Positions 1,554 through 31,194 of a stretch of DNA of 64,000 nucleotides are shown here, piece by piece (position 1 is the stretch's first letter; every line of letters begins with the position of its first letter). The notes under the pieces are model-generated. The model saw only the letters and a program-made list of their open reading frames with translations. It did no database searches and was not told where the DNA came from. A program made the position numbers and the translations under genes. Origin of the DNA: Thermoguttaceae bacterium. Lineage in GTDB: Bacteria > Planctomycetota > Planctomycetia > Pirellulales > Thermoguttaceae. The stretch spans positions 1-64,000 of the forward strand of contig JAQVHZ010000009.1 of assembly GCA_028695965.1 (NCBI GenBank). The letters run 5' to 3'.

Positions 1554-4264
1554 CGTCTCGGCGGTTATGCGGCAAATTGCGGCGCTGCGCGCTCGTTCTT
1601 TCGGCGTGTTGCTGCGTATTTTTCGCGTCGGCGACGCGCGCGGACGAGGTCGGTTCGGAACCGTCGGCTGTTGCTGGGATAGAAAGCGTTCCCGAAACGG
1701 CCGCGCTTCGTGAAACGGTCGATAAAGCGAAGTATCCCTGGCTCTCGAAAGAGACGGGCAAGCCGGTCTATTTGCCCCTTTCCCCCGTTGAAGAGATCAA
1801 GAGGCCGAGGAGCAAATCTCAGGAACATAACGCCGATTTCGGATGGCTTGACGGCTTGGCCAAGTTTGCAACCTGGTTGACATACGCGCTCGTCGCAGGC
1901 GCCCTGCTTGCCGCGATCGTTTGGGCGGTTCGTTCGTTCGCTCAGAAGAGCTGGAAGCTGAAATCACGCGTCGACGGGGAGGCTGCCGCGCGCGAGCGCC
2001 GCATCAGCACGTTGGCGCCGGAAGCCGCGGAGCGGTACGACGATCTCCTTGCCGCGGCTCAAGACGCGTTTGATCGTGGCGACTATCGTTACGCGCTCAT
2101 TTTCTATTTCAGTTATCTTCTCGTCGAGATGGACAAGCGCCGCTTCGTTCTGCTCGAGAAGGGCAAGACGAACCTTGTCTATTGGCGCGAATTGACGGAA
2201 TTTCCAGAGCTTCGTTCGATCTATCGTTCGACGATGAAGGAATTTGAACGGGTCTATTTCGGCGGAGCCTCGATAACCCGTGAGGAATTCGGCGCCATAT
2301 GGTCGCTTCACGCTCGTTTTTCGGAGCTGACGCGCGAGCATGACGCGCGCGAGGCGAGCCGTCTTGGGGCGCTGGCGTCGGCGAGTCAAGGAACGAGCGC
2401 GCCGGTTCCGACGCAGCTTACGCTTTTCATCGCGGTTCTGGCGCTGGCGTCCTGTTTCGGCTGCCTGCCCGAGAAGAATACCTGGCGGTCCCGGTATAAG
2501 AGCGACGTCGAGCAGAACGATCGCGAGAGCCTCAATTCGGCGACGACTTATCTGAAATATTGCCGCAGCGGCGCGAAATGGAAGGTGCAGACGGTCAACC
2601 ATTGGCAAATGATGGAATACGGTTTGGCTAACCTCGTCAGGGGCAAGGACGCGGTCGTCTGGTTCGATCCGCCGCCCAGGCCGGGTTCGCCGCCTTTTTC
2701 AGATTTGCGCTGGCTGTGCGCAGGCGAAGGAACAGGAGAACGCGCGGACCGAGTCGCGGCGACCGAGGCGATTTTGCGCCGGTACGCGGACGCGACGGAG
2801 AACGATTTCGACCAATTTGCGACGACCGTAACGACGCCGAACTTCGACGCGATTAAAGAAGACGTGGCGCGTTGGCTCGAGGGTCGGCCGAACCGCGTCT
2901 TTGTGATTGTGGGGTCGGGATGGGACGCCTATCCGTATTATTTGCTCGACGCGCGCCAAGATCTTCTGGACTCGGGCGCCGCCGACGCCGAACCTCGTCT
3001 TCTCCAAGAATGCGACGGTTTCCTTGAGAGGTTCATGAAGGATGTCAAGGGGGGACGGACCCCCTCCTTTAATTTTGAGGGCGTCGACTGGACCGACCTC
3101 GACAGCTGGGCGGACAAGGAGCTTCAGAAATGGCCCGAAACGTCAAAAGATATGTTTTTGGCGCTTCAGGCGGTGAACAGAGCCATTTTGGCGTCTCCTA
3201 AGAAACACGCCGCCGTTCTTCTTTGGGAATATGAGGAGTCGGAATACGAAGAAGCCGGCGCGGTTTTGCCCGACGGTCTCAAAGAGGCGGTCATTCTTCA
3301 GTTCGAGCAGGAGCAAGCCGCCGCTCCTGAAGAACCTGGCAGTTCCGAAGAATCTGCGGACTCCGCGCCCGACGTCGGCGAGTTGGACGTCGAGGAGAAA
3401 TGGCGTCTTGCGTTTCGTTGGATTCGGTCGGAAATCTCCGTCAGCAAGGTCAGTATGGGGATGTATCGGAGGGAGAAAGAGAGCGCGGGCTCTCCGTTTC
3501 CCTACCGCATTGGTAAGTTCGACGACGGGACCGCTTGGCAGACGGACGAGCGCGCTTGGGAGCCTTTCTTTGTAACTCGGATCATACCTTCTGCGTTTGG
3601 AGAATGGACCAAGCTCGAGGGCGGCGGAAAAGAGAGCGGCGACATAAGACACGATCCTCAGAGCCTTATCCGGACGGGCAAATTCAGCGGCGACCCAAAA
3701 TGGACGCAGGGTCTTCCGGAGGAAGCGCGCTTGTACGAGTTCTGTCGGCTCGAGCCTTTCGGCGATACGAAAGTCCTCTTGGCGTTAGGGGACGTCCCGC
3801 TAATCTGCGAGCGCAAGGTCGGGCAAAGCAGGCTGCTGATTGTCAATTCAAGCTCGTTTTTGTCGAATTACGGATTGACGGATCCCGTGAATATGGAATT
3901 AGCGGCGCGCTTGACGCGCGAGATTCCTCCGAAGAGCCGCGTACTCGTCAGTTTGACGAATATTCCTTATTTTGACTTTGACGCGTCGGACGACGATTTG
4001 CCTCCTGACGACGGTCCGTTTTCGCTGAAAGAGGCGACGCCTTACGCCGTCTTCATTTGGAATCTGGTCTTTTTAGGCGCGTGCGCGGTCTTTTGGGCGT
4101 ATCCGGTCTTCGGGCGTCCTAAGCGTCTCCTGCAAGAGCGCAGGAACGATTTTAGCCGACATATCAACGCTTATGCGAGCGAGCTGGAAAAAATCGGAGC
4201 GCGCGAGTGGGCGCAAGAACAAATCGACGCGTATCGAGCGTCGGATAATTTGCCCGAGCTTTGA
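1550..4264 (+). CDS. DUF4129/DUF4350-like fused membrane protein, copy 1
   Basis: 904-aa ORF with N-terminal signal peptide (…FFASATRADE), TM segment, DUF4129-like segment (DRGDYRYALIFYFSYLLVEMDKRRF), internal hydrophobic segment, DUF4350-like segment (VFVIVGSGWDAYPYYLLDAR) and C-terminal TM. Confidence 0.75.
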   Translation: MTSRRLCGKLRRCALVLSACCCVFFASATRADEVGSEPSAVAGIESVPETAALRETVDKAKYPWLSKETGKPVYLPLSPVEEIKRPRSKSQEHNADFGWLDGLAKFATWLTYALVAGALLAAIVWAVRSFAQKSWKLKSRVDGEAAARERRISTLAPEAAERYDDLLAAAQDAFDRGDYRYALIFYFSYLLVEMDKRRFVLLEKGKTNLVYWRELTEFPELRSIYRSTMKEFERVYFGGASITREEFGAIWSLHARFSELTREHDAREASRLGALASASQGTSAPVPTQLTLFIAVLALASCFGCLPEKNTWRSRYKSDVEQNDRESLNSATTYLKYCRSGAKWKVQTVNHWQMMEYGLANLVRGKDAVVWFDPPPRPGSPPFSDLRWLCAGEGTGERADRVAATEAILRRYADATENDFDQFATTVTTPNFDAIKEDVARWLEGRPNRVFVIVGSGWDAYPYYLLDARQDLLDSGAADAEPRLLQECDGFLERFMKDVKGGRTPSFNFEGVDWTDLDSWADKELQKWPETSKDMFLALQAVNRAILASPKKHAAVLLWEYEESEYEEAGAVLPDGLKEAVILQFEQEQAAAPEEPGSSEESADSAPDVGELDVEEKWRLAFRWIRSEISVSKVSMGMYRREKESAGSPFPYRIGKFDDGTAWQTDERAWEPFFVTRIIPSAFGEWTKLEGGGKESGDIRHDPQSLIRTGKFSGDPKWTQGLPEEARLYEFCRLEPFGDTKVLLALGDVPLICERKVGQSRLLIVNSSSFLSNYGLTDPVNMELAARLTREIPPKSRVLVSLTNIPYFDFDASDDDLPPDDGPFSLKEATPYAVFIWNLVFLGACAVFWAYPVFGRPKRLLQERRNDFSRHINAYASELEKIGAREWAQEQIDAYRASDNLPEL

Positions 4265-19990: not shown

Positions 19991-20947
19991 TTATTCAGGA
20001 TTGGCGGTTGCTGCGGCGCCGACGGCGAGCCGTTTGCCGCTCAGCATGATTTCCCCGGCGGAGGCGAGATTGTCGATATCTTCTTCGATGAGCGCGACGA
20101 TCGCGATGTTATGCGCGTCGGCAAACGCGATCGTTTCTTCCGGGTCGATAAAGAGCGATTTTTTCGCTTCGACGGCGAGCACGGCGGCGCCGGCTTTAGC
20201 CATTGTTTGGACGGTGCCCAGCCCGAAGGTCGGCACGTCGAACCGCATATCTTGGTTCGGCTTCGAGACTTTGACGACGACAAAGTTCTTGCTTTTACAG
20301 AGCTTGCCGGCGCGTTTGATCGCCTCGTCGGTCCCTTCGATCGCCTCGACGGCAAGGACGGCGCGGTTCTTTACGGAGACGCTCTGACCGACGTCGAGCC
20401 GCCCCATTTCTCTTGCAAGTTTCCAGCCGAAAAGGACGTCTTGTAATTGCGCGGACGTCGGAGCGCGCTTAGTCAGTAGTTTGCGTTCCACAAGTAACTC
20501 CGGTGCGAAATAGGTTCCAGGCAAGACTGTAATTCCACGTCGTTCGAAGGCGCAACATACGGCGCCGAGCAGAGAATCGTCTTTGCAGTCGACGCGCCGA
20601 TGCAGGAAATGGTCGACGAAAGTGCGGATTGTGTAGAGGTCGGGCGCTTGGCGCCAGATGAAAAACGGGTCGAAGAGACGGACTTTGTGAATTTTGCCCG
20701 CGAGCGTCGCGTATTCGACGTTGTGTTTGCGAAAGAATCGTGTCGCCCAGCCGAATTTGCCCATGCCTTTCCAGACGAAGACGTCGCATATTTCCGCCAG
20801 GACAGGCTCTGCGTGATCGCGAATGCCCATGCATACGACCTCGTACCCGACGTCTTTCAGCGCGCGAGCTAAGTGGATCGGATAACGTCCCCAGCCTGCG
20901 ACGAGGCCGATACGCTTGACGTCCGGATGTTGGTGTTGCACGTTCAA
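19991..20947 (-). CDS. lpxI: UDP-2,3-diacylglucosamine diphosphatase LpxI, copy 1
   Basis: IGLVAGWGRYPIHLARALKDVGYEVVCMGI, TRAPTSAQ-like region, and conserved C-terminal half of LpxI/DUF1009 family. Confidence 0.87.
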   Translation of the reverse strand: MNVQHQHPDVKRIGLVAGWGRYPIHLARALKDVGYEVVCMGIRDHAEPVLAEICDVFVWKGMGKFGWATRFFRKHNVEYATLAGKIHKVRLFDPFFIWRQAPDLYTIRTFVDHFLHRRVDCKDDSLLGAVCCAFERRGITVLPGTYFAPELLVERKLLTKRAPTSAQLQDVLFGWKLAREMGRLDVGQSVSVKNRAVLAVEAIEGTDEAIKRAGKLCKSKNFVVVKVSKPNQDMRFDVPTFGLGTVQTMAKAGAAVLAVEAKKSLFIDPEETIAFADAHNIAIVALIEEDIDNLASAGEIMLSGKRLAVGAAATANPE

Positions 20948-21114: not shown

Positions 21115-22065
21115 TTATTCAGGATTGGCGCTTGCCGCGGCGCCGACGGCGAGCCGTTTGTCGCTCACGGTAAATTCCGCTTCTGCGGCGGGATTGTCGA
21201 TATCTTCTTCGATAATTGCGATCATCGCGATATTATGCTCGTCGGCGTAGGCGATCGTTTCTTCGGCGTCGATGAGGAGCGACTTGCCCGCTTCGAAGGC
21301 GAGCACGCGCGCGCCGGCTTCCGCCATCGTTTGGACGGTTCCGAGCCCGAACGTGGGGACGTCGAACCGCATATCCTGATGCGGCTTGGCGATTTTGACG
21401 ACGACGAAGTTCTTGCTCTTGCAGAGCTTTCCTGCGCGTTTGATCGCTTCGTCGGTTCCTTCGATCGCTTCGACGGCAAGCACGTCGCGGTTCTTTACGG
21501 AAACGCTCTGTCCGACGTCGAGCCGTCCGATCGCTCTTGCGATTTTCCAGCCGAAAAAGACGTCTTGTAATTGCGCGGACGTCGGGGCGCGTTTAGTGAG
21601 TAATTTGCGTTCCACAAGCAACTCCGGAGCGAAATCGGTTCCTGGCAGGATGATAATACCGCGTTTTTCAAAGGCGCGGCATACGGTGTTGAGCAGAGAG
21701 TCGTTTTTACAGTCCTCGCGTCGGCGCAGGAAATGGTCGGCGAAGAGTCGGATCGTGTAGAGGTCCGGCGCTTGGCGCCAGATGAACAGGGGGTCGTAAA
21801 GGCGGACTTTTTGAATTTTGCCCGCGAGCGTCGCATATTTGACGTCGTGTTTGCGAAAGAATCGCGTCGCCCAGCCGAATTTGCCCATGCCTTTCCAGAC
21901 GAAGACGTCGCATATTTCCGCCAGGACAGGGTCCGCATGATCGCGAACGCCCATGCAGACGACCTCGTAGCCCTCGCTTTTCAGCGCTCTGGCCAAGTAG
22001 ATTGGATAATGACCCTGACCTGCAATGAGGCCTACGCGTTTGACGTCCACGGGATGAGGCTGCAC
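21115..22065 (-). CDS. lpxI: UDP-2,3-diacylglucosamine diphosphatase LpxI, copy 2
   Basis: Colinear and highly similar to the 19991-20947 ORF; immediately downstream of lpxD. Confidence 0.87.
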   Translation of the reverse strand: MQPHPVDVKRVGLIAGQGHYPIYLARALKSEGYEVVCMGVRDHADPVLAEICDVFVWKGMGKFGWATRFFRKHDVKYATLAGKIQKVRLYDPLFIWRQAPDLYTIRLFADHFLRRREDCKNDSLLNTVCRAFEKRGIIILPGTDFAPELLVERKLLTKRAPTSAQLQDVFFGWKIARAIGRLDVGQSVSVKNRDVLAVEAIEGTDEAIKRAGKLCKSKNFVVVKIAKPHQDMRFDVPTFGLGTVQTMAEAGARVLAFEAGKSLLIDAEETIAYADEHNIAMIAIIEEDIDNPAAEAEFTVSDKRLAVGAAASANPE

Positions 22066-28449: not shown

Positions 28450-28533
28450 GCCGGACTGGCGGAATAGGCAGACGCGATGGATTCAAAATCCATTGCCCGA
28501 AAGGGCGTCCCGGTTCGACTCCGGGGTTCGGTA
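28450..28533 (+). tRNA. tRNA-Leu (anticodon CAA)
   Basis: Acceptor GCCGGAC/GTTCGGT; anticodon stem-loop ATGGA-TTCAAAA-TCCAT; long class II variable arm GCCCGAAAGGGC; T-arm CCCGG-TTCGACT-CCGGG; discriminator A, CCA not encoded. Confidence 0.93.
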
Positions 28534-28536
28534 CTT

Positions 28537-28567
28537 AAAAACCCAACGCTTAAAGCGTTGGGTTTTT
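28537..28567 (+). terminator. Intrinsic terminator after tRNA-Leu
   Basis: AAAAACCCAACGCT-TAA-AGCGTTGGGTTTTT. Confidence 0.88.
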
Positions 28568-28673: not shown

Positions 28674-28754
28674 CTAACTAAAATACTTTTGCATCAGGCT
28701 GTCGAATAAAAGTTGGGTTTCGTCGATGGATTTCTGCACGACGAATTGGAATTT
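28674..28754 (-). pseudogene. 3' tail of a disrupted type I restriction specificity subunit (hsdS)
   Basis: Minus-strand frame KFQFVVQKSIDETQLLFDSLMQKYFS*, typical of HsdS C-termini. Confidence 0.75.
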
Positions 28755-28758
28755 GCAG

Positions 28759-29253
28759 TTATCTATACTCTTTTGGAATTTCGATATGAAATGTCTCACA
28801 CAATAACTTCACATCATGTACATCATTTTCATCAAACTCGTATCCCAGATGGAACATTACTTGACTATATGGTTCAATACAGGAAACCTCTATTTCCTCA
28901 ATTTTTCCTTTACCCGAAAAAGTTTCTACTGGAAAACAATCCCCATCATAAAGAATTTCACCTTCGTCCGTATATTCAAAACAATGCAAATCAACAATTC
29001 TGTTTTTCAAATCTTCCCATACAGTATGGTTCAATGTTGTATATTCCATCTTAATCTCATAAAAGCCATTAGCTTTCATTATCTCTATAAAGTTTTGATA
29101 ATCGTTCTTTTCTACAAAAATATCAATATCGTTATGGGCTCTTGACTGATGTCCAAGAAGAGCATCTACACCCCAGCCACCATCAAGAAAGACTTTAATC
29201 TCCGCATCTATTGCAAATTGAAGAATCTGTTTTACATCAGTTATATTGACCAT
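28759..29253 (-). CDS. lnu: Lincosamide O-nucleotidyltransferase, Lnu(C)-like
   Basis: 164 aa; nucleotidyltransferase motif FLDGGWGVDALLGHQSRAHNDIDIFVE; closely resembles Lnu(A)/Lnu(C)-type enzymes; visibly AT-rich relative to neighbours; GGAG SD upstream. Confidence 0.88.
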   Translation of the reverse strand: MVNITDVKQILQFAIDAEIKVFLDGGWGVDALLGHQSRAHNDIDIFVEKNDYQNFIEIMKANGFYEIKMEYTTLNHTVWEDLKNRIVDLHCFEYTDEGEILYDGDCFPVETFSGKGKIEEIEVSCIEPYSQVMFHLGYEFDENDVHDVKLLCETFHIEIPKEYR

Positions 29254-29261
29254 CTTATCAT

Positions 29262-29734
29262 CTCCACAAATTCAAGTTTTTCTATATCCTCGCGATTTAC
29301 CGAGCCAAAGACAGATCCAGACTGTTTGTCGATTAAATGTGCAGCATAATAGCGCATCAAGTAAAACAAGAACTCCTGGTTTCCGTTTTTCATACGTAAA
29401 GAACACAAGCCCCTACCTAAGCACATTTTAACAGGAGTAATATTAAGAGCTCCAACGGGGCCCTGACGCTCATGATTACATCGTTAGGAAGCGCTATTTT
29501 AGTTGGAACGGTGGTATATGTGTCGAATGACGGATATTTAGCGCCGAATGTCCTACTCCCTTGCAAAAAAGGCAAGCCCTCCTTGTTTGCGTTGTAGTAT
29601 TCCGACTTCGGCGATTGCCCCATCGTAACGTCTGCAATACTGCCTAAGCAACATTTAATCATAACAATCGTATCCAATAAACTTCCTATGCGCCAATTTA
29701 ACATTTCGTAAATTGTCAGATAGGAACTCGTCAA
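29262..29734 (-). pseudogene. Frameshifted, truncated hsdS (TRD and conserved region)
   Basis: LGSIADVTMGQSPKSEYYNANKEGLPFLQGSRTFG…NDVIMSVRAP in one frame continues as VGALNITPVKMCLGRGLCSLRMKNGNQEFLFYLM…NREDIEKLEFV in another after a 1-nt change near 29457-29460. The 5' boundary is not resolved. Confidence 0.8.
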
Positions 29735-30300: not shown

Positions 30301-31194
30301 ATGAAAACGCGGGCCGATGAATTTTCCGGGCTGACCGTTGCAATGATCACGCCCTTTAAGAACGGGAAAGTCGATTTCGACGTTCTTCAAGAGCAGGTGG
30401 AGTTCCAAGTGGCGGCGGGCACGACGGCGATTTCGCCGACCGGAACGACTGGCGAATCTCCAACGTTGACGCACGAGGAGCAGCACGAAGTCATTAAGAA
30501 GATGGTCGAATTTTCGGCGGGTCGTGTCAAGGTGCTCGCTGGCAGCGGCTCGAACAGCACCGCCGAAGCTCTTTCGTTGTCTCGCTATGCGGAAAGCGTG
30601 GGCGCGGACGCGCTGCTGGTCATCGGTCCGTACTACAATAAGCCGACTCAGGAGGGTATGTACCAGCATTTCAAGGCGGTTGCCGAAGCGGTTGATATTC
30701 CCGTCTGCGTCTACAACGTGCCCGGCCGTACGAGCAAAGCGATCGACGCCGAGACGATCATTCGTCTTGCGGAGATCAAGAATATCGCGCTGGTGAAAGA
30801 CGCGACCGGCACGATGGAGAACGCGTCGCGCGTCATTGCGGCGACGGATCTTACGGTTCTTTCCGGGGACGACAGCTTGACGCTTCCCTTCATGGCGCTT
30901 GGCGCTCGGGGCGTCGTTTCTGTCGCCGGCAACTTTGCGCCGCGCGACATTGTCGCGTTGTGCAAGGCGATGAACGCGGGCAACCTCGACGAAGCGCGCG
31001 CGCTGCACAAGAAGCTCCTGCCGCTCAGCCACGGCATGCTGTCGTTGTCGACGAATCCGATTCCGGTGAAGAAAGCGATGCAGCTGCTCGACCGCGACTC
31101 TGGGGAACTCAGACTGCCTATGACGGAACTCGAGCCCGCGCTGACGGAGAAGCTGCGCAAGCTGCTCGTCGATTACGGCTTGCTTGCCGAATAG
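30301..31194 (+). CDS. dapA: 4-hydroxy-tetrahydrodipicolinate synthase
   Basis: GTTGESPTL, VLAGSGSNSTAEAL, GPYYNKPTQEGMYQHF, YNVPGRT, KDATG motifs. Confidence 0.95.
   Translation: MKTRADEFSGLTVAMITPFKNGKVDFDVLQEQVEFQVAAGTTAISPTGTTGESPTLTHEEQHEVIKKMVEFSAGRVKVLAGSGSNSTAEALSLSRYAESVGADALLVIGPYYNKPTQEGMYQHFKAVAEAVDIPVCVYNVPGRTSKAIDAETIIRLAEIKNIALVKDATGTMENASRVIAATDLTVLSGDDSLTLPFMALGARGVVSVAGNFAPRDIVALCKAMNAGNLDEARALHKKLLPLSHGMLSLSTNPIPVKKAMQLLDRDSGELRLPMTELEPALTEKLRKLLVDYGLLAE

Follow-up and report, generated by a model that had tools for sequence, protein, structure and literature searches.

How does a lincosamide resistance gene come to lie within the remains of an hsdS gene when no transposase accompanies it? 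We addressed this question for a window of 64,000 nucleotides (i.e., the whole stretch of DNA analysed) from a Thermoguttaceae bacterium (genome G000), a presumed gut planctomycete. The initial annotation had read the locus as an Lnu(C)-like gene embedded in a decayed hsdS gene, placed between tRNA-Leu and dapA, and both the identity of the parts and their location were borne out by profile searches and homology, as follows (positions are those of the window):

28450-28534, plus strand: tRNA-Leu(caa), neighbour of the hsdS remnant (ARAGORN)
28674-28747, minus strand: hsdS 3' fragment (FVVQKSIDETQLLFDSLMQKYFS and stop; begins AATTCGTCGTGCAG), the last 24-25 hsdS codons
28735-28762, minus strand: right junction dyad ATAACTGCAAAT-TCCA-ATTCGTCGTGCA, score 14.5, its outer arm being native hsdS tail
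28749-28755, minus strand: right inner end box CAAATTC, which accompanies the gene elsewhere too
28759-29253, minus strand: lnu(C) coding sequence, predicted 164-aa lincosamide nucleotidyltransferase (NCBIfam NF000141)
29260-29287, minus strand: left junction dyad ATATAGAAAAAC-TTGA-ATTTGTGGAGAT, score 14.8, its outer arm being the hsdS EKL codons
29262-29265, minus strand: GGAG, predicted from sequence as the ribosome-binding site of lnu(C), within the cassette; the 20-nt leader is conserved in close bare copies
29267-29273, minus strand: left inner end box GAATTTG, which marks the edge of the mobile unit and is found 20 nt ahead of the ATG where near-identical lnu copies occur in other surroundings
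29274-29659 (approximate), minus strand: hsdS 5' fragment (IKCCLGSIADVTMGQSP...NREDIEKL), with one target-recognition domain (HsdS homology)
30301-31194, plus strand: dapA, neighbour on the other side of the hsdS remnant (Pfam PF00701, 302 bits)

The resistance ORF scored 368.3 bits against the NCBIfam Lnu(C) profile NF000141 (cut-off 300) over positions 1-164 of 164, and its product is predicted to be a full-length Lnu(C). The cassette has a GC content of 33% vs 55% in the window, in agreement with the AT-rich insert in a GC-rich host described at the outset, and no transposase ORF was evident within 27.6-31 kb of the window. The 60 nt ahead of lnu(C) showed no convincing promoter, meaning that expression of the gene would need read-through from hsdS.

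Both flanking segments are recognisable by their homologues. The hsdS head is 40-43% identical to HsdS of other family members (G019, G130) and is frameshifted, with one base missing near 29439-29461 and the fragment read in three frames, while the tail is 92-94% identical at the DNA level to the tails of two intact hsdS genes of the same genome (contigs C87 and C12). Relative to intact HsdS, about 21-23 codons (...PPIELQxxFxxFVxxVDKL) are gone between EKL and KFVVQKS, which fits the loss of some 20-30 codons estimated earlier and amounts to approximately 65 bp of hsdS; where the intact C87 gene reads GTCGACAAATTAAAATTCGTCGTGCAG, its counterpart in the window reads TAACTGCAAATTCCAATTCGTCGTGCAG. 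Two further features of the window were noted in passing: a perfect 15-bp inverted repeat with a 1-nt loop at 28537-28567, adjoining tRNA-Leu and probably a transcription terminator, and two tandem genes that by eye are similar and LpxI-like (19991-20947 and 21115-22065, minus strand), adjoining an LpxD-like gene.

In the plasmid and phage records examined, lnu(C) was in every case (8/8) the passenger of ISSag10, lying after the ISSag10 transposase. The plasmid and phage matches have 523 bp in common with the window and then end abruptly; specifically, the window diverges from ISSag10 at 20 nt ahead of the ATG and 8 nt past the stop codon (CTGCAAATTCCAATT in the window vs CTGCAAATAACAGTT in ISSag10), and it matches the stand-alone cassette instead. 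The insert thus resembles ISSag10/MTnSag1 (IS1595 family) in its resistance gene and 20-nt leader, but differs from it in having neither the transposase nor the ISSag10 ends, and in the bases that stand right after CTGCAAAT. One could still imagine an ISSag10/MTnSag1 remnant from which transposase and ends were deleted on both sides, given that the gene is the same and 97.4-97.8% identical to the ISSag10 copies. However, the window gene is nearer to bare copies (99.6% DNA identity to L023 and 99.2% to L022), no ISSag10 sequence extends past the two points of divergence, and the bases that come next are TCCAATT, as in the bare cassette, vs AACAGTT in ISSag10. As the flanks do not match ISSag10, we rejected this explanation, which we regard as extremely improbable.

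The bare arrangement was initially thought unusual; it turned out to be widespread, as about 36 of 80 lnu(C) loci in species-level genomes (a count made by hand) were without the ISSag10 left flank or transposase. Their hosts are Clostridia, Victivallales, Bacteroidaceae and planctomycetes, and the bare loci have only the 20-nt leader (GAATTTGTGGAGATGATAAG or close variants) and some 10 nt downstream (CTGCAAATTC or CTACAAATTC) in common. The insert is also not devoid of terminal repeats, as had been supposed: in the window, the inverted boxes GAATTTG (29273-29267) and CAAATTC (28755-28749) bound the cassette, each within a degenerate dyad. A different lnu(C) insertion, adjoining a KdsD-like gene, is common to the five congeneric genomes G015, G017, G019, G011 and G009 (loci compared: L012, L013, L021 and L197-L201); it is lacking in G010, where about 890 bp are replaced by about 64 bp, and between G015 and G017 its gene is 100% identical and the whole region 96%.

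Where the mobile unit ends can be read from copies of the same gene in different places. Five lnu genes that are 100% identical (L068, L069, L070, L071 and L073) have inner ends that are 90-100% identical, while their left arms agree at only 12-75% of positions. Gut isolates such as Oscillibacter ER4 and Butyricicoccus pullicaecorum are among the hosts of identical lnu genes. Arm identity showed no rise with gene identity (0.41 at a gene identity of at least 98%, 0.41 at 95-98% and 0.44 at 90-95%), and beyond the arms the sequences of lnu(C) loci agree at about chance level. The combination of identical genes and inner ends with arms that are independent of gene identity indicates that a defined unit of about 525 bp has moved. 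The converse was seen in a prophage slot flanked by zinc-ribbon and terL-like genes, in which the arms (GGAAGATAAAT and AATTTATCAAA) and the promoter are constant and the gene varies: one copy carries a VOC/YdeI gene, a second copy in the same genome carries lnu(C), and a copy in another genome carries a GNAT gene (two further copies of the slot have related arms). It is the gene that moves, and the arms remain at the locus.

Other single genes were found with the same type of ends, namely VOC, GNAT, phosphorylase, nucleotidyltransferase, GH16 and RlmA-like methyltransferase genes. For example, a nucleoside phosphorylase gene with the same boxes directly follows lnu(C) in L022, L147 has VOC, GH16 and pyrophosphatase-like genes arrayed within the same boxes, and the boxes also bound a nucleotidyltransferase gene in L152 and an RlmA-like methyltransferase gene in L160. 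A one-end pattern (at most 2 mismatches) gave 126 matches in 30 genomes vs 28 for the reversed control, with most of these genomes having been selected for lnu carriage, which adds one or two matches each. A pattern for cassette-cassette junctions matched in 3 of 392 genomes (control 0), and the plasmid and phage collections held no convincing junction of this kind. Of 37 left ends, 25 had a -10 box (at most 1 mismatch to TATAAT) in the preceding 45 nt, compared with a background fraction of 0.21. The cassettes themselves appear to lack promoters and to depend on one at the landing site. We consider it very likely from these comparisons that lnu(C) forms a single-gene unit of about 525 bp that moves independently of ISSag10.

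Two observations concern individual sequences. The RlmA-like cassette (L160:1473-2406), which stands alone, consists of a short leader ORF (MTAYMRLR) and the rRNA methyltransferase gene, and is possibly an inducible resistance gene; the start only of such a cassette lies directly after lnu(C) in L058, from position 3520. In genome G146, a repeat with CAAATTCGGGTTTGTxGAGC occurs near several contig ends (L148, L149, L150 and L151); it resembles a dyad arm and may represent a dispersed repeat family.

Aligning the arms yielded a 28-bp junction dyad with the consensus AGTTCGACAAAT-N4-ATTTGTCGAACT. With a landing-arm matrix built without the window, we ranked 809,170 placements in the window and in two stretches of hsdS-bearing contigs. 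All three of the best-scoring placements fell in the intact C87 hsdS gene: its midpoint codons (ELVKLRFVEMFG, on both strands) and its tail codons VDKLKFVVQKS, the latter at the very position of the right junction in the window. There, the outer arm is identical to the tails of the intact hsdS genes in C87 and C12; for the left outer arm, the fraction of background positions that attain its score is 0.0013. Since codons at the midpoint and tail of hsdS look like a cassette landing site, the location of the window cassette in hsdS may not be arbitrary. The C87 dyads are nevertheless largely dictated by the conserved peptide, as 11.7% of synonymous-codon shuffles of this gene attained the observed maximum. 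Dyads scoring at least 19 numbered 5 in 65.7 kb of a first hsdS set, 0 in 102.7 kb of a second set and 4 in 467.8 kb elsewhere, meaning that the likeness to a landing site fits only some HsdS types. The junction between transposase and lnu in ISSag10 (L005 and other ISSag10 loci) was itself scored as a weak landing dyad (ATCTCCACAAATTCTAATTAGGCGACCA, score 15.4), which suggests that ISSag10 may once have captured lnu(C) as a cassette.

By eye, the left and right outer arms had seemed to covary, as a palindromic target would predict, but a shuffle test found no covariation within loci (p=0.32) and this argument was dropped. Of 27 genomes searched for exact empty dyads (TCGACAAA-N0-12-TTTGTCGA), only G017 had one, a single copy, and no clean empty site, which would bear on target-site duplication, was found for a solo cassette.

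Which enzyme might act on such sites? Tyrosine recombinases that shuffle hsdS use short repeats within these genes: TvrR excises circles and reintegrates them at an hsdS midpoint repeat of about 18 bp and a tail repeat, which have a core of about 11 bp in common (PMC6265443), and PsrA carries out inversion at a 15-bp repeat (PMC7096588). We found a comparable hsdS-shuffling locus in genome G704 (L293, contig G704:C13), where three hsdS pieces surround a 331-aa tyrosine recombinase. The crossover sequences of this locus are directly readable: the three pieces have exactly ACCGACAAATCAAAAT in common before they diverge, and the midpoint copies have TCCCGATTTATCGAGATG in common after divergent DNA. 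When compared with the cassette arms, the left half-site of this locus ranked in the top 1e-6 to 4e-6 of background positions and the midpoint (right) half-site in the top 3e-4, so that half-sites are common to the cassette arms and the G704 locus. Contig C12 of the window's own genome encodes a recombinase with a Phage_integrase domain that is 59% identical to the one in G704 and lies 3 kb from an intact hsdS gene. The matching half-sites and the related recombinase near hsdS make an hsdS-type tyrosine recombinase the leading candidate, and we tentatively propose that an enzyme of this type moves the cassette. The likeness to TvrR and PsrA, matched by the description of their sites, lies in the short repeats located at hsdS midpoints and tails; unlike the cassettes with their resistance genes, the known systems move pieces of hsdS. 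No recombinase was linked to the cassette, and 5 of the 12 cassette-bearing genomes searched gave no match to hsdS (Pfam PF01420) at the chosen threshold. Another set of candidates, tyrosine recombinases of about 310 aa that matched the IntI profile, was set aside, these being XerC/XerD-like, located away from hsdS and without strong sites.

The history that we propose begins with a minimal cassette, i.e., lnu(C) with its own ribosome-binding site between GAATTTG and CAAATTC, without promoter or transposase. Cassettes of this kind, with lnu(C) or another single gene, would move between genomes and join recipient DNA at dyads of the form AGTTCGACAAAT-N4-ATTTGTCGAACT. Recombination would take place within the few bases that separate inner boxes from outer arms; the boxes would move with the gene and the arms would remain at the landing site. 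Copies that land just downstream of a promoter would be expressed from it. The window cassette would have landed in the hsdS tail codons between DKL and KFVVQKS, forming the landing dyad, after which about 65 bp of hsdS on the left would have been lost between EKLEF(V) and the cassette (GAATTTGTG), probably by slippage between two GAATTTG-containing repeats. The most likely enzyme would be an hsdS-shuffling tyrosine recombinase akin to TvrR and PsrA that acts in trans, presumably through a circular intermediate.

The main rival to this history needs one step and no site-specific enzyme: a bare lnu(C) fragment from another gut bacterium would have replaced about 65 bp of hsdS by microhomology-driven (illegitimate) recombination, guided by AAACTTGAATTTGTG-like homology on the left (the EKLEFV codons) and AATT(C/T)GTCG on the right. 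Cassette ends and hsdS do overlap at both junctions, target sequence was lost, which is not expected of a simple site-specific insertion, and the left junction is found at EKL instead of the tail site, so that cassette insertion requires an extra deletion. Yet the right junction falls exactly at a top-ranked landing site, and microhomology would leave unexplained both the identical unit edges in many unrelated contexts and the exchange of genes within constant arms, and we consider it unlikely. A chimeric assembly was considered as well, the genome being a draft of 153 contigs that is 82% complete; however, the contig is 68 kb long and continuous, the hsdS tail is of the same family as the other hsdS genes of this genome, and the junctions lie at edges seen in many other assemblies, including those of isolates, which makes a chimeric metagenomic contig highly improbable.

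Integron gene cassettes share with the units described here the promoterless single genes, varied cargo, expression from an upstream promoter and occasional head-to-tail arrays (L022, L147, L058), and some junctions contain triplets resembling RYYYAAC/GTTRRRY; an integron cassette moved by an IntI-type integrase into a non-canonical (attG-like) site was accordingly considered. But here each end of the gene bears part of the recombination sequence, within a 28-bp dyad, in place of a single attC after it, the outer triplets are not conserved, and the boundaries do not follow G^TTRRRY. IntI (TIGR02249) exceeded the curated cut-off in none of 18 cassette-bearing genomes, G000 included. We rejected the integron reading, which is very unlikely, on the lack of IntI and the wrong geometry; a Treponema-type attC, considered because of the arrays, was dropped on geometry as well. 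The cassette would thus work like an integron cassette while lacking the hallmarks of one. It also resembles MITEs or TIR transposons moved in trans in being a short, transposase-free unit bounded by inverted ends, but differs in that its outer ends are not constant with the unit: the arms remain with the locus, their identity is independent of that of the gene, and no transposon family was identified. Considered as a whole, a mobile cassette moved by an hsdS-type recombinase, with the two-step history proposed for the window, is the explanation that we prefer and hold to be moderately probable.

In the open-access literature we found no description of lnu(C) or other genes as cassettes of this kind, although an earlier description is possible elsewhere; what seems undescribed in that literature is the class of cassette, its cargo gene being known. 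A broader and more conjectural possibility is that gut bacteria have a second gene-cassette system independent of integrons, in which hsdS-shuffling tyrosine recombinases would move promoterless genes, including resistance genes, hsdS and promoter-proximal dyads would serve as docking sites, and the lnu(C) of ISSag10/MTnSag1 would be a captured cassette. A 525-bp unit without a transposase is easily overlooked by mobile-element annotation, yet it brought an identical resistance gene into unrelated genera, and its ends provide a simple search motif for a census in gut metagenomes. If the docking rule is true, the origin of the ISSag10 lnu(C) passenger would also be explained, and resistance and other cargo could spread via recombinases known for changing DNA-methylation specificity.
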